A stretch of 57,930 bases of DNA from Bacillota bacterium (GTDB lineage Bacteria > Bacillota > Sulfobacillia > JACIYH01): the NCBI GenBank assembly GCA_014360055.1, contig JACIYH010000007.1:1-57930 (forward strand), written 5' to 3'. The position numbers were made by a program, and so were the translations under genes. This document shows, one piece after another, positions 29,248 through 34,184 of this stretch. The notes beneath the pieces are model-generated. The model was given only the letters and a program-made list of their open reading frames with translations. It was not told the DNA's origin and made no database searches. How positions within the stretch are numbered: position 1 is the first letter of the stretch; each line of letters starts with the position of its first letter.

Positions 29248-32200
29248 TCACATGGTGGGGAGGGGTTGGGTGCGGGTCGGGACTTCGGCGAAGAGGTCGG
29301 TGAGCATGGCGGCCAGCTGGTCTTTGCGGTAGCCGGGGAGGGTGATGGCTGCACCGGGGCACTCGGCGGCGCAGGTGCCGCAGCCCCGGCACTGCACGGG
29401 GTCGATCTGGGCCACGTTGCGCTGGTTGATGAAGGGTACCCGGTAGGGGCAGACCCGTACGCAGGTCAGGCAGGCGGCACACTTCTCTTCGGTAACGGTG
29501 GCCACGATGCCGCCGGCCAGCAACTCCTCCTTGGCCAGGAGGGAGGCGGCCCGTGCGGCGGCGCCCTGGGCCTGGAAGATGGTTTCCGAGATGGACTTGG
29601 GGGCATGGGCGGCACCGCACACGTAGATGCCGTGGGAGGGGAGGTCCATGGGGCTCATCTTGGGGTGCAGTTCCAGGAAGAAACCGTGCTCGTCCAGGGG
29701 GACCTTGAGCAGGGAGGCCAGTTGCGCCACCCCTTCGGCAGGCACGGCCGCCGTGGAGAGGACCACCAGGTCGGGGTGGATGGCTATGCGGCGGCCGCTC
29801 TGCACGTCGGTGGCTGCCAGGGTGAGGTCGCCGGCCCCCGTGATCCCCACCCGCGGCGGCTCCTCGGCACGGTAACGGAGGAAGGACACGCCCCGGCGGC
29901 GGGCCTCCCGGTAGTACAGTTCCCGGGTGCCGTAGGTGCGGATGTCGCGGTACAGCACGATGACCTGGGCATCGGGGTTCAGTTCCTTCACGCGCAGGGC
30001 GTTCTTCACCGTCTGGGAGCAGCAGGTGCGGCTGCAGTACTGCTGGCCCGTGGTGCGGGAGCCCACGCAGCCGATGAAGACCATTGTACCCAGGTCCCGG
30101 ACCCGGTGGGGCTGCGAGGCCAGCAACTCTTCGAATTCCAGCCGGGTGAGGATGCGGGGATCCTCACCGTAGAGGTACTCGGTGGGACGGTACTCCTCGG
30201 TGCCCGTGGCCAGGACGAGGGCGCCGTGCTCGATCTCCCTGGTCGAGCCGTCGGGCAGGTGCACCACGCTGCGGTAGTGGCCGGCGTGCCCGGAGAATTC
30301 GAGAAGCTGGGTGCCGGTGAAGACCTCGATGCGGGGGTTCTCCAGCACGCGGCTGCGCAGGTCGGCGAGCAGCGGTGCCACCGGGCCTGCCTCCAGCGTG
30401 GAGTGCAGGCGCCGTAGGATACCTCCCAACTCCGGCTGCCGCTCGACCAGGTAGGTGTGGAACCCCTGGTCGGCCAGGGAGAGGGCGGCCTGCATCCCGG
30501 CCAGCCCGCCGCCCAGCACCAGGGCGCGCGGGATCACCGGTACCGTGAAGAGGGTGAGGGGCTCCGCCCTCGCCACCTTGGCCACCGCCATGCGTACCAG
30601 GTCGGTGGCCTTGGCCGTGGCCGCTGCGGGGTCGTCGCGGTGCACCCAGGAGCACTGCTCGCGGATGTTGGCCATCTCGAAGAGGAACGGGTTGAGGCCG
30701 GCCTCGCGCAGGGTCTCCTGGAAGAGGGAGCGGTGGGTACGGATGGTGCAGGAGGCCACCACCACCCGGTTGAGCCCCTTTTCGGCGATGAGTTCGCGGA
30801 TGCGGCCCAGGTGGGCCTGCGAGCACGCGTACATGGTGGCCTCGGCGTGCACCACCTCCGGCAGGGTGGCGGCGGCGCGGGCCACCTCCTCCACGTCCAC
30901 CACCGAGGCGATGTTGGTGCCGCAGTGGCAGACGAATACCCCCACCCGGGGCGGCTGCCCCGCCACCGGGAGGGGAGGCGGGTATTCCTTCTTTCTGATC
31001 ATCTTGCCGCGGGCATCCCGGAGGAGGGTGCCGGCCTGTGCGGCCGCGGCGCTGGCCATCATCACCGACTCGGGGATGTCGCGGGGAGCGGTGAAGCCAC
31101 CCACGGCAAACACTCCCTCCCTGCTGGTCTTGACGGGGGCCAGGGGATCGACGGCGGCAAAGCCGTGGCGGTCCAGGGCGATGCCGGCGGCCCGCGCCAG
31201 TTCCCCCGCCGCGGCCGGGGGACGGGCGGCGGTGGCCAGCACCACCAGGTCGAACTCTTCCTGGTGCAGGCGGCCGTCGAGCCAGTACCTGATCACCAGG
31301 TTGCCGGTGACGGGGTCTTCCTTGAGGGTGGAAATCATGGTGGGCAGGTAGCGCACGCCTCTCCCCTCGGCGGAGAGCAGATACTTCTCGAACCCCTTGC
31401 CCACCGCCCGCAGGTCGCCGTAGAACACCGTGATCTCGGTTTCGGGGTGGTGATCCTTGACCATGATGGCCTGCTTGGTGGCGTACATGCAGCACACCGA
31501 GGAGCAGTAGGGGATGTGGCCGTCATCGCGCGAGCCGGCGCACTGGATGAAGGCCACCCGGTGCGGCACCTTGCCGTCGGAGGGCCGCTCCACGTGGCCG
31601 CCGGTGGGGCCGGTGGCCGAGAGCAACCGCTCCAGTTCCTGGCCGGTGACCACGTTACGGTAGATGCCGTGACCGTAAGCGGGGACGGTGGCGGCGTCGA
31701 TGAGGTCGAATCCCGGGGCCAGCACCACCGCACCCACCTCGAGTTCCACGGTGGCGGGTCCATCGCCGTGGCGGACGGCGTTCTTCTGGCAGGCCGACTC
31801 GCACTGCAGGCACTCCGAGCAGATGCCGCAGTCCAGGCAGCGGGAAGCCTCCCGGCGGGCCTCTTCTTCGGTGTAGGGGAGCACCACCTCCGCGAAGCTC
31901 CTCACCCGGGAGGCGGGATCCAGCTTGCGCGGGCGCACCCGGCGCTGGCGGGCCACGCCGGAGGTGTCGAATTCCAGGTGGGCGATCTCCTCCAGGAGGG
32001 GACGGGCGCTGCGCCCGGCCCGCAGGTCCTCGCCCTGCAGGAAGCGGTGGATGGACTCGGCCGCCTCCTTCCCGGCGGCCATCGCCTCGATCACGGTGGC
32101 GGGGCCGGTGACGGCGTCACCGCCGGCGAACACGCCCGGCAGATTGGTGGCCAGAGTCACCGGATCCACCACCAGGGTGCCCACCGGGGTGCGGATGAGT

Positions 32201-33762
32201 CCGGAGTCGGCCAGGAACACCTGGTCGGGGGCCTGGCTGACGGCGGTGATCACCGTCTGGCAGGGCACCTCGAGCTCCGAACCGGGGATGGGTACCGGCC
32301 GCCGGTGGCCGCGGGCGTCGGGGTCCCCCAGGCGGTTGCGGATCAGGCGCAACCCGGTCACGCCTAAGTCCTCGCCGCGGTGGCCGTCCTCCGGCGCGCG
32401 GGCGCGGCCGTCGCCCAGCACGGCCACCGGGCTGACCAGGAACACGAAGCGCACCCCTTCCTCGCGGGCTTCCTCCACCTCTTCGGGGAGGGCGGTCATC
32501 TCCTCGGGGGAGCGGCGGTAGTACACGGTGACCTCTTCGGCCCCCAGGCGCAGGGCGGTGCGGGCGGCGTCGATGGCCGTGTTGCCGCCGCCGATCACCG
32601 CCACCTGCTTCCCCACCCGCAGGGGCTGGCCCAGGTTGGCCAGGCGCAGGAAGGTGACGCCGTGATACACCCCCGGCAGGTTCTCCCCCGGCAGGCCGAT
32701 GAAGAGGGGCTCGTGGGCCCCGATGCCCAGGAAGACGGCCCGGAACCCCATCTCGAACAACTGCATGAGCGGTAGCTGGGGTCCCACCGCCACCCCGGTG
32801 CGGAACTCCACCCCCATGCGGCGGATGAGGTCGATCTCGGCGTCCAGCAGGTCCTTGGGCAGGCGGTAGGGCGGGATGCCCACCCTCAACATGCCTCCCA
32901 GCACGGAGAGGGCCTCGAAGACGGTGACGGGGTAACCCCGGCGGGCCAGGTGGTAGGCGCAGGCCATCCCGGCGGGGCCGGAGCCCACCACCGCCACCTT
33001 CTCCGGGCGCGGCGGCTCCATGTCTTCCCGGATGATGCGGTCCAGATCTTCCACCTGGCGGAGGACGTATTCGCCCACGAAGCGCTTGATGCGGGACTTG
33101 GCCACCGGCTCATCCACGGTACCCCGCTGGCACACGGTCTCGCAGGGGTGGTGGCACACCGTCCCGCAGATGATGGGGAAGGGTATCGCCCGGCGGATGA
33201 GTCGCCACGCTTCTACGTACTTCCCCTCCCGCACCAGGGCCACGTACCCGTGGGGGTTGACCCCCGAGGGGCAGGCCTGCTGGCAGGGGGATTTCCCCCG
33301 CTTGTCGATGAGGAACTTGTTGGGTACCGCCTGGGGGAAGGGCCGATGGATGGCCTTGCGCCGGCTCAGCCCCAGGTTGAACTCATCGGGCACCTCCACC
33401 GGGCACACTGCCGTGCAGTCCCCGCAGCCCGTGCACTCCTTCTCGTCCACGTAGCGGGGACGGCGCAGCAGCCTGGCCCGGAAGTGGCCGGGCCCCCCGT
33501 CGAGGTTCTGCAGGGTGGTGAGGGTGTGAATCTGGATGTTGGGGTGATTGAGGCACTCGGTCATGCGGGGCCCCAGCAGGCACATGGCGCAGTCGTTGGT
33601 GGGAAAGGTCTTGTCCAGCTGGGCCATGCGTCCCCCCAGGCTGGCCCCCGATGTGACCAGGTGAACAAAATAGCCGCCCTCGGCCAGGTCCAGGGCGGCC
33701 TGCATGCCGGCGATCCCGCCGCCGACGACCAGTACGGAGCCCAGTGGTTCGGTCACGGACAT
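29248..33762 (-). CDS. HdrA-GltD-HdrA fusion flavoprotein (iron-sulfur oxidoreductase)
   Basis: A 1,504-residue protein. Order: HdrA-like FAD site (GGGIAG, 14-19), PTNDCAMC at 54-61, [4Fe-4S] motif with Cys110/113/116/120; a GltD-like block with CQQACPSGVNPHGY, an FAD site GSGPAGM near 260 and an NADPH site GGGNTAIDAA near 387; then HdrA again, with a Cys-rich cluster (CLDCGICSECLQC, about 640), CAGSRDDG and CSSVCC (about 735-755), VFVCHCGTNIA (about 943), a second FAD site GGGLAG (about 1083), CVGSRTTG and CSRTCC (about 1225), and two C-terminal [4Fe-4S] motifs (about 1425-1465). HdrA proteins use FAD for electron bifurcation, and GltD-like units take NADPH. No hdrB, hdrC or hydrogenase gene lies near. 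ATG 33762 follows CGGGGGG. Confidence 0.85.
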   Translation of the reverse strand: MSVTEPLGSVLVVGGGIAGMQAALDLAEGGYFVHLVTSGASLGGRMAQLDKTFPTNDCAMCLLGPRMTECLNHPNIQIHTLTTLQNLDGGPGHFRARLLRRPRYVDEKECTGCGDCTAVCPVEVPDEFNLGLSRRKAIHRPFPQAVPNKFLIDKRGKSPCQQACPSGVNPHGYVALVREGKYVEAWRLIRRAIPFPIICGTVCHHPCETVCQRGTVDEPVAKSRIKRFVGEYVLRQVEDLDRIIREDMEPPRPEKVAVVGSGPAGMACAYHLARRGYPVTVFEALSVLGGMLRVGIPPYRLPKDLLDAEIDLIRRMGVEFRTGVAVGPQLPLMQLFEMGFRAVFLGIGAHEPLFIGLPGENLPGVYHGVTFLRLANLGQPLRVGKQVAVIGGGNTAIDAARTALRLGAEEVTVYYRRSPEEMTALPEEVEEAREEGVRFVFLVSPVAVLGDGRARAPEDGHRGEDLGVTGLRLIRNRLGDPDARGHRRPVPIPGSELEVPCQTVITAVSQAPDQVFLADSGLIRTPVGTLVVDPVTLATNLPGVFAGGDAVTGPATVIEAMAAGKEAAESIHRFLQGEDLRAGRSARPLLEEIAHLEFDTSGVARQRRVRPRKLDPASRVRSFAEVVLPYTEEEARREASRCLDCGICSECLQCESACQKNAVRHGDGPATVELEVGAVVLAPGFDLIDAATVPAYGHGIYRNVVTGQELERLLSATGPTGGHVERPSDGKVPHRVAFIQCAGSRDDGHIPYCSSVCCMYATKQAIMVKDHHPETEITVFYGDLRAVGKGFEKYLLSAEGRGVRYLPTMISTLKEDPVTGNLVIRYWLDGRLHQEEFDLVVLATAARPPAAAGELARAAGIALDRHGFAAVDPLAPVKTSREGVFAVGGFTAPRDIPESVMMASAAAAQAGTLLRDARGKMIRKKEYPPPLPVAGQPPRVGVFVCHCGTNIASVVDVEEVARAAATLPEVVHAEATMYACSQAHLGRIRELIAEKGLNRVVVASCTIRTHRSLFQETLREAGLNPFLFEMANIREQCSWVHRDDPAAATAKATDLVRMAVAKVARAEPLTLFTVPVIPRALVLGGGLAGMQAALSLADQGFHTYLVERQPELGGILRRLHSTLEAGPVAPLLADLRSRVLENPRIEVFTGTQLLEFSGHAGHYRSVVHLPDGSTREIEHGALVLATGTEEYRPTEYLYGEDPRILTRLEFEELLASQPHRVRDLGTMVFIGCVGSRTTGQQYCSRTCCSQTVKNALRVKELNPDAQVIVLYRDIRTYGTRELYYREARRRGVSFLRYRAEEPPRVGITGAGDLTLAATDVQSGRRIAIHPDLVVLSTAAVPAEGVAQLASLLKVPLDEHGFFLELHPKMSPMDLPSHGIYVCGAAHAPKSISETIFQAQGAAARAASLLAKEELLAGGIVATVTEEKCAACLTCVRVCPYRVPFINQRNVAQIDPVQCRGCGTCAAECPGAAITLPGYRKDQLAAMLTDLFAEVPTRTQPLPTM

Positions 33763-33823: not shown

Positions 33824-33853
33824 ATTATACCTGCAATCCCAAATTTTACGCAA
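33824..33853 (-). promoter_or_regulatory. Promoter of the HdrA-type gene
   Basis: Minus-strand TTGCGT (33853-33848) and TATAAT (33829-33824), 18-bp spacer, about 61 bp upstream of the start. Confidence 0.6.
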
Positions 33854-34184
33854 ATTAGTGCCTGGGAGGACAATCGCACAGTTTTTGCTGGTCATGTACC
33901 GCGTGGATCGAGTCACAACAGCCATCTTCGCGGGCCGTGGTGCACGGGTCGGTCCTCGGAAAGGTGAGTGTGCGCACGCGAACAATCGCAGGGCCGTTGC
34001 ATAAGTTTTCATCCCTCGCACGCCGGGGGAATTTCTATGTCATGATGTACGACGCCGACGTGGGCACACCGCCGCCCGTGTGACCGATGCCGCCCCCGCG
34101 CGCCGCCTTGCGGCAGCGCAGGCCACCCGGGGGCACTGCGCAGGAACCGGTAGGGTGGTGGCGAACCTGTGAGGCGTGGGGGGG
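33854..34184. other. Divergent intergenic region
   Basis: The 330 bp between the HdrA-type promoter and the phosphatase-like gene are AT-richer on the left and very GC-rich on the right. No gene, RNA or convincing rightward promoter was found. Confidence 0.4.

Follow-up and report, generated by a model that had tools for sequence, protein, structure and literature searches.

A solitary HdrA-GltD-HdrA protein from a Sulfobacillia bacterium with a candidate NADPH-type GltD module on a scaffold related to MetFV-linked HdrL

The DNA analysed here, referred to as the window, is a complete contig of 57.9 kb (JACIYH010000007.1) from a bacterium of the class Sulfobacillia (Bacillota). Its minus strand carries hdrL, a gene encoded alone, whose product is a HdrA-GltD-HdrA flavo-iron-sulfur protein of 1,504 residues. 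We propose, at a little under an even chance, that this is a solitary, module-swapped NADPH-type HdrL, a paralogue of the HdrA of type IV methylenetetrahydrofolate reductase (MTHFR), which would dock in trans on HdrBC and MvhD and perhaps MetFV. The fusion is widespread and already known from anaerobic bacteria, whereas a conserved clade of solitary HdrLs with an exchanged NADPH-type GltD module appears, from the sequences compared, to be new. The first-pass annotation had regarded the fusion itself as unusual, a view that was not supported: the Moorella MetFV-HdrABC-MvhD complex has this fusion as its HdrA (PMC9430772), and HdrL is a further example (PMC2702500).

The solitary HdrLs formed one clade (support 0.999; 99–100 on the HdrA part), represented in the tree by ten copies from at least four families. 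On the HdrA part, this clade joined the MetFV-linked HdrLs of the class (support 100; 98 with L113, L102 and L155), and its GltD part grouped with that of the Thermincolaceae-type HdrLs (support 97). The approximately unbiased test, whose p-values are optimistic here because the grouping was chosen with a first tree already in view, rejected grouping the solitary HdrA part with the Flx and other types (p = 1.8e-65) or with the Thermincolaceae type (p = 0.0002) and, for the GltD part, rejected uniting the solitary and class MetFV-linked groups (p = 0.0009); the two directions agree. By these trees, the HdrA scaffold of the solitary HdrL is sister to the MetFV-linked HdrL of its host and the GltD module is of other origin. 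Since Thermincolaceae-type copies, which have the same type of GltD and the YRR coenzyme motif considered below, lie inside complete hdrCB-hdrL-mvhD-metVF operons, an NADPH-type module fits a docked HdrL. Eight substitutions had first seemed specific to the solitary copies, seven of them in GltD (Fisher p = 0.0015). Adaptation to solitary life was rejected as their explanation, because T201 and the surrounding GltD motif also occur in the operon-encoded Thermincolaceae-type HdrLs, and the set is best read as inherited with the module.

The reading frame runs without interruption from an ATG at 33762 to a stop at 29248, as seen from the open reading frame (ORF) and its translation. Domain assignment and structure prediction agreed on one continuous chain with a GltD unit inside the first of two HdrA-like parts, as the first-pass annotation had it. 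The NCBIfam models HdrA2 (955 bits) and HdrA matched both halves, a PRK12771/GltD-type unit covered residues 152–672 above the curated cut-off, and Pfam detected Fer4_20, Pyr_redox_2 and Fer4 domains. FAD motifs begin near residues 14 and 1083 and the CAGSRDDG and CVGSRTTG blocks are both found, again as announced, with a third FAD motif in GltD at about residue 260. The earlier description of two HdrA halves needs refinement, since they are unequal and complementary rather than duplicates. Copy 1 (residues 1–155 and 641–925) has neither the HdrA N-terminal domain nor the C-terminal ferredoxin domain; copy 2 (936–1490) has both of these, without an inserted ferredoxin domain or the PTxDCxxC cluster motif. 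In copy 1, GltD (151–640) interrupts the inserted ferredoxin domain between Cys110–120 and Cys642–658. Among PDB sequences, the outer parts matched HdrA chains, and the insert matched chains of NfnA, StnC and NfnB. AlphaFold2 models of residues 1–930 (predicted local distance difference test score, pLDDT, 89; predicted TM-score, pTM, 0.86) and 641–1504 (pLDDT 84, pTM 0.83) resembled GltD chains of NfnABC/StnABC and HdrA structures in Foldseek. The first model matched 8rwn_A in an alignment of 917 columns for 428 target residues, with a TM-score of 0.93 by target length, and therefore has a HdrA fold carrying a long insert. The features are as follows.

29248–33762, minus strand: hdrL, HdrA-GltD-HdrA flavo-iron-sulfur protein, encoded alone (ORF; NCBIfam and Pfam matches; orthologues at 95% and 88% identity).
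33824–33853, minus strand: putative promoter TTGCGT-18-TATAAT (conserved in two congeneric genomes, L116 and L117).
33454–33762, minus strand: FAD-binding start of HdrA copy 1 and PTNDCxxC, residues 1–103 (Cys58 and Cys61 invariant; AlphaFold2 mean pLDDT 89).
33313–33453, minus strand: first half of the inserted ferredoxin domain, residues 104–150, with Cys110, 113, 116 and 120 (Fer4 match; Cys invariant).
31843–33312, minus strand: GltD/NfnB/StnC-like NAD(P)H module, residues 151–640, with its own FAD and Fe-S ligands (Fer4_20, Pyr_redox_2, PRK12771; best Foldseek matches NfnABC/StnABC chains).
32512–32592, minus strand: NAD(P)-binding motif GGGNTA...YRR, residues 391–417, of apparent NADPH type (aligned over 109 homologues; YRR also in NfnB, StnC and NfnA).
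31777–31842, minus strand: second half of the inserted ferredoxin domain, residues 641–662 (six Cys, all invariant).
30988–31776, minus strand: remaining thioredoxin-reductase-like domain of HdrA copy 1, residues 663–925, with E711 and K763 (alignment to 5odc_A).
30538–30957, minus strand: N-terminal domain of HdrA copy 2, residues 936–1075, with Cys945, 947, 980 and 1005, expected to face MvhD (alignment to 5odc_A and 8rvu_a; Cys invariant).
29518–30537, minus strand: thioredoxin-reductase-like domain of HdrA copy 2, residues 1076–1415, with the third FAD, E1211 and K1253 (AlphaFold2; Foldseek to 5odh_A, TM-score 0.79 by target length).
29323–29517, minus strand: C-terminal two-cluster ferredoxin domain, residues 1416–1480, expected to face HdrC (Fer4_10; eight Cys invariant).

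In Rossmann folds, the residue that ends the second strand influences the choice of coenzyme: Arg there goes with NADPH, and Glu with NADH. At this position of the NAD(P)-binding fold, the window protein carries YRR, which supports the NADPH-type GltD of the first-pass annotation, as do eight of the nine other solitary copies (L164 reads R-D) and the NfnB, NfnA and StnC chains in the PDB. The operon HdrLs of the class are of the Glu type, (C/S)(L/V)E, in 9/9, and the rest of the family in the 109-homologue alignment has RR in 59 and Glu in 31. The Glu type was also found in three ORFs matching the published Moorella length (1487 aa) and residues E696, K750, E1204 and K1246. Mock et al. reportedly found in 2014 that the Moorella HdrA is NAD-specific. 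This HdrA oxidises NADH (PMC9430772, PMC8578096). The coenzyme site of the window HdrL thus looks like the NADPH type and that of its operon paralogue like the NADH type. Two genomes carry a second, divergent solitary HdrL (L164 in G147:C61 and L167 in G149:C8) in which FRD or FKG replaces YRR, possibly reflecting a different coenzyme specificity. Among flx-linked HdrLs (L014, L156, L157, L159–L162 and others), the NADPH-type motif was present in 18 of 19, versus 47 of 84 elsewhere; Flx (NADH) and HdrL (NADPH) could together form a transhydrogenase-like complex.

The Fe-S ligands and the Glu/Lys pairs of the HdrA flavin sites are intact. Every Fe-S cysteine column that is invariant among partnered HdrLs is Cys in all solitary copies too. 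GltD residues Lys226 and Arg300 align with K170 and R239 of StnC, so that Lys226 takes the position of the fourth ligand of the proximal cluster, where NfnB has Glu; Lys is found there in all ten solitary copies and most other HdrLs. In StnC, these residues belong to a GltD FAD that is a non-bifurcating NADPH entry site (PMC10482914), and because of this match GltD is the most likely electron input. In the HdrA parts, alignment to 5odc_A equated E711 and K763 with E356 and K409 of Methanothermococcus thermolithotrophicus; RDxRxxGK was dropped as the K409 position because this alignment places K409 in CCMYAxK. The copy 1 Glu and Lys were present in 109/109 sequences. The corresponding pair in copy 2 is E1211/K1253, and nine of ten solitary copies keep a Glu/Lys pair in both halves, while the copy 2 pair is frequently lost in partnered ones. 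These signature residues suggest that the HdrA sites of both halves are of the bifurcation type. At the position of window residue 58, about 33 relatives (L019, L023, L029–L034, L036–L040 and others) have an in-frame TGA within FPTND-U, predicted to encode selenocysteine in place of the first Cys of PTxDCxxC, as known for HdrL (PMC2702500).

Proteins of this kind usually have partners. We recovered at least 583 related loci and fetched 80, whose matches were co-linear and nearly full-length. For 69 relatives, 1 kb or more of sequence was available downstream; in 61 of them mvhD or flxD lay within 2.5 kb downstream, often with metVF, flx or hdrBC; partners were detected by single-sequence searches with references from the window's own genome, and curated Pfam models were applied in that genome. 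As the first-pass annotation had stated, such genes are missing around the window gene: genome-wide Pfam searches gave no match on the window contig to HdrB-type (PF02754) or MvhD-type (PF02662) proteins, and searches with own-genome references found no HdrC homologue in the window. Partner genes were likewise absent near the orthologues in two congeneric genomes and near the closest homologues in other families of the class, with incomplete flanks for the solitary copies L148, L149 and L164. Two further HdrLs from Candidatus Delongbacteria (L020, L022) have no recognisable partners within 7 kb and are unrelated to the solitary clade.

The search of the genome for hdrB, hdrC, mvhD and flx, proposed as a check in the first-pass annotation, located three hdrCB sets and three mvhD/flxD sets. 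One surrounds a paralogue of the same architecture and 57% identity in a RACo-hdrC-hdrB-hdrL-mvhD-metV-metF operon on contig C65, where, unlike the window hdrL, the paralogue stands with metVF and an acetyl-CoA synthase gene lies about 7 kb away; the others are the hdrCBA-flxDCBA and hdrCBA-mvhDGA loci. A second HdrL, NADH-type and/or in MetFV context, occurs in nine of ten genomes that hold a solitary copy, a count over genomes that are not phylogenetically independent; none was found in G148, which is about 81% complete.

In the scheme we propose, the FAD of GltD, similar to the non-bifurcating GltD FAD of StnC, would accept a hydride from NADPH. Single electrons would then pass through [4Fe-4S] clusters to the inserted ferredoxin domain and from there reach the HdrA flavins with their Glu/Lys pairs of the bifurcating type. 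The most likely output would be HdrBC-MvhD from other loci, docked in trans, above all from the metVF operon, giving an NADPH-fed version next to the NADH-fed operon version in one cell. Identities within groups are compatible with retained docking. The GltD FAD/NAD domain is more conserved in the solitary than in the MetFV copies (0.66 versus 0.51), and the docking domains of the solitary copies are not clearly more relaxed (C-terminal ferredoxin domain 0.60 versus 0.55; N-terminal domain 0.69 versus 0.73).

Several points weigh against docking in trans. To work in trans, the HdrL would require HdrBC and MvhD of its own, and no spare copies of these lie outside operons in the genome. The pairing of solitary and operon HdrLs within genomes may reflect shared ancestry; moreover, the operon context in G149 is not visible on its 4-kb contig, and the GltD part is missing for G039. 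Relative to GltD, the HdrA scaffold has a somewhat higher rate of evolution in the solitary clade than in operon HdrLs, a possible sign of loosened docking. The NADPH specificity is read from the motif, and complexes of the Moorella type are not known to bifurcate (PMC9430772, PMC8578096). The alternative raised in the first-pass annotation was a self-contained NAD(P)H-linked enzyme, electron-bifurcating or disulfide-reducing. In the form weighed here, electrons would run from NADPH through GltD and the HdrA flavins to ferredoxin in solution, or to another diffusible carrier, without HdrB, HdrC or MvhD, as an NADPH-ferredoxin oxidoreductase or one-chain transhydrogenase. The solitary state on which that proposal was built is real and conserved in the clade: a monocistronic, partnerless context persists in at least four families, the gene has its own conserved putative promoter, the internal chain is complete with three FAD sites and all Fe-S ligands, and the Glu/Lys pairs of both halves are kept more often than in partnered copies. 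However, the same fusion is mvhD-linked in most relatives, and the two domains that in solved HdrA complexes serve HdrC (the C-terminal ferredoxin domain) and MvhD (the N-terminal domain) are retained together with the ligands as in partnered copies; independence is therefore not favoured. The literature consulted offers no precedent for a HdrA acting alone, and the operon homologue of Moorella gave just viologen diaphorase activity and no ferredoxin reduction (PMC9430772, PMC8578096). On balance, self-containment seems to us unlikely, if still a serious competitor.

Docking on other partners, HdrABC-FlxABCD or HdrABC-MvhADG, would link NADPH to NADH or H2. Both sets are complete in the genome, and the combination of Flx with an NADPH-type HdrL recurs elsewhere; the solitary scaffold, however, is sister to MetFV-linked and not to Flx-linked HdrL, and the flx and mvh operons already have a HdrA of their own, which makes this version improbable. 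Smaller still is the chance of a redundant or decaying duplicate with no distinct role. A paralogue of the same architecture does exist in the genome, but the ligands are all invariant, GltD is under more constraint than in operon copies, and the gene is intact in at least ten genomes. That two genes had been joined by an assembly error, one of the findings that the first-pass annotation said would overturn it, or by chance, was ruled out for practical purposes by the co-linear relatives and by full-length orthologues in two other, congeneric species. What remains preferred is the NADPH-fed HdrL docking in trans.

The start and surroundings of the gene were also examined. An alternative in-frame GTG lies upstream at 33879. 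The putative promoter, kept in the three congeneric species compared (window, L116 and L117), falls just upstream of the ATG and within the GTG extension, so the ATG is favoured. A simple promoter scanner did not report this promoter, whose −35 element matches at just 3/6 positions. Within the genus, the neighbours of hdrL are threonine-biosynthesis genes, LysE and a phosphodiesterase. None is conserved across the families of the solitary clade, and shared neighbours were for that reason rejected as a functional clue. In the window, a HepT-like gene (PF20797; 28396–29170, minus strand), preceded by a small nucleotidyltransferase-like ORF with no Pfam match, lies between hdrL and lysE; the two are probably a HEPN/MNT toxin-antitoxin pair. 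The two congeneric genomes have lysE immediately after hdrL. Proteins of about 900 aa with HdrA-GltD and no second HdrA half occur as L177, L178 and in further genomes of the class, with a mvhD-like gene near L177 and L178. A 1,018-aa ORF conserved in the genus (L091 and congeners; G000:C66:19920-21332) has a GltD module about 50% identical to the window insert and is possibly an NfnABC/StnC-like subunit.

The solitary paralogue bears on energy conservation by the Moorella-type MTHFR and on the identity of the carrier that accepts the enzyme's second pair of electrons. Having the same scaffold, another coenzyme module and no operon partners, it offers a natural test of the HdrL chain's own ferredoxin- or NADP-linked activity, of whether coenzyme choice sits in an exchangeable GltD, and of whether one HdrBC-MvhD-MetFV core takes both NADH and NADPH. 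The same energy-saving enzyme may exist in the cell in an NADH and an NADPH version. We consider it a real prospect, short of a probable one, that the system represents either a coenzyme switch of one bifurcating MTHFR by HdrL exchange on shared HdrBC-MvhD-MetFV cores or the first self-sufficient single-chain bifurcating NADPH:ferredoxin enzyme of the HdrA type. The motifs further suggest that sequence reveals the coenzyme type of a HdrL (YRR versus Glu), a help in the annotation of many genomes of anaerobes.

Among known systems, the window protein follows the domain order of HdrL and the Moorella-type HdrA, namely a first thioredoxin-reductase-like domain with a GltD-split ferredoxin domain, then the N-terminal domain, a second thioredoxin-reductase-like domain and the C-terminal ferredoxin domain, in about 1,480–1,510 aa. 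The HdrA of Moorella thermoacetica (1,487 aa), for which eight [4Fe-4S] clusters, three FAD and one NAD(P)H site are predicted (PMC9430772, PMC8578096), shares this order, the near-identical length and the Glu/Lys pairs in both thioredoxin-reductase-like domains; it differs in being encoded in a hdrCBA-mvhD-metVF unit and oxidising NADH, whereas the window gene is solitary, with an NADPH-type motif and a GltD module of other descent. The HdrL fusion was described in Desulfobacterium autotrophicum HRM2, where mvhD follows each of HdrL1–3 and two contain selenocysteine (PMC2702500); the window copy has neither. With GltD inserted in the inserted ferredoxin domain of HdrA and the equivalents of E356/K409 conserved, the window protein also agrees with type III HdrA (HdrA9–11) of methane-metabolizing archaea (PMC12054007, PMC9012536). 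That literature describes no solitary bacterial clade; its type III proteins come from archaea with multiple hdrA or mvhADG genes, and its authors disagree on NADH versus NADPH. The HdrA of HdrABC-MvhADG (5odc, M. thermolithotrophicus) has the fold, E356/K409 and cluster cysteines common to both window halves, but with one HdrA per chain, no GltD and separate subunits as partners. The closest solved GltD is that of the StnABC/NfnABC transhydrogenases (8oh5, 9bov, 9n5u; PMC10482914), at 40–44% in the Foldseek alignment, which shares the Lys at the proximal-cluster position and the YRR motif; there, unlike in the window protein, it forms a fusion with a ferredoxin-rich subunit, and its partner is an FMN subunit rather than HdrA flavins.
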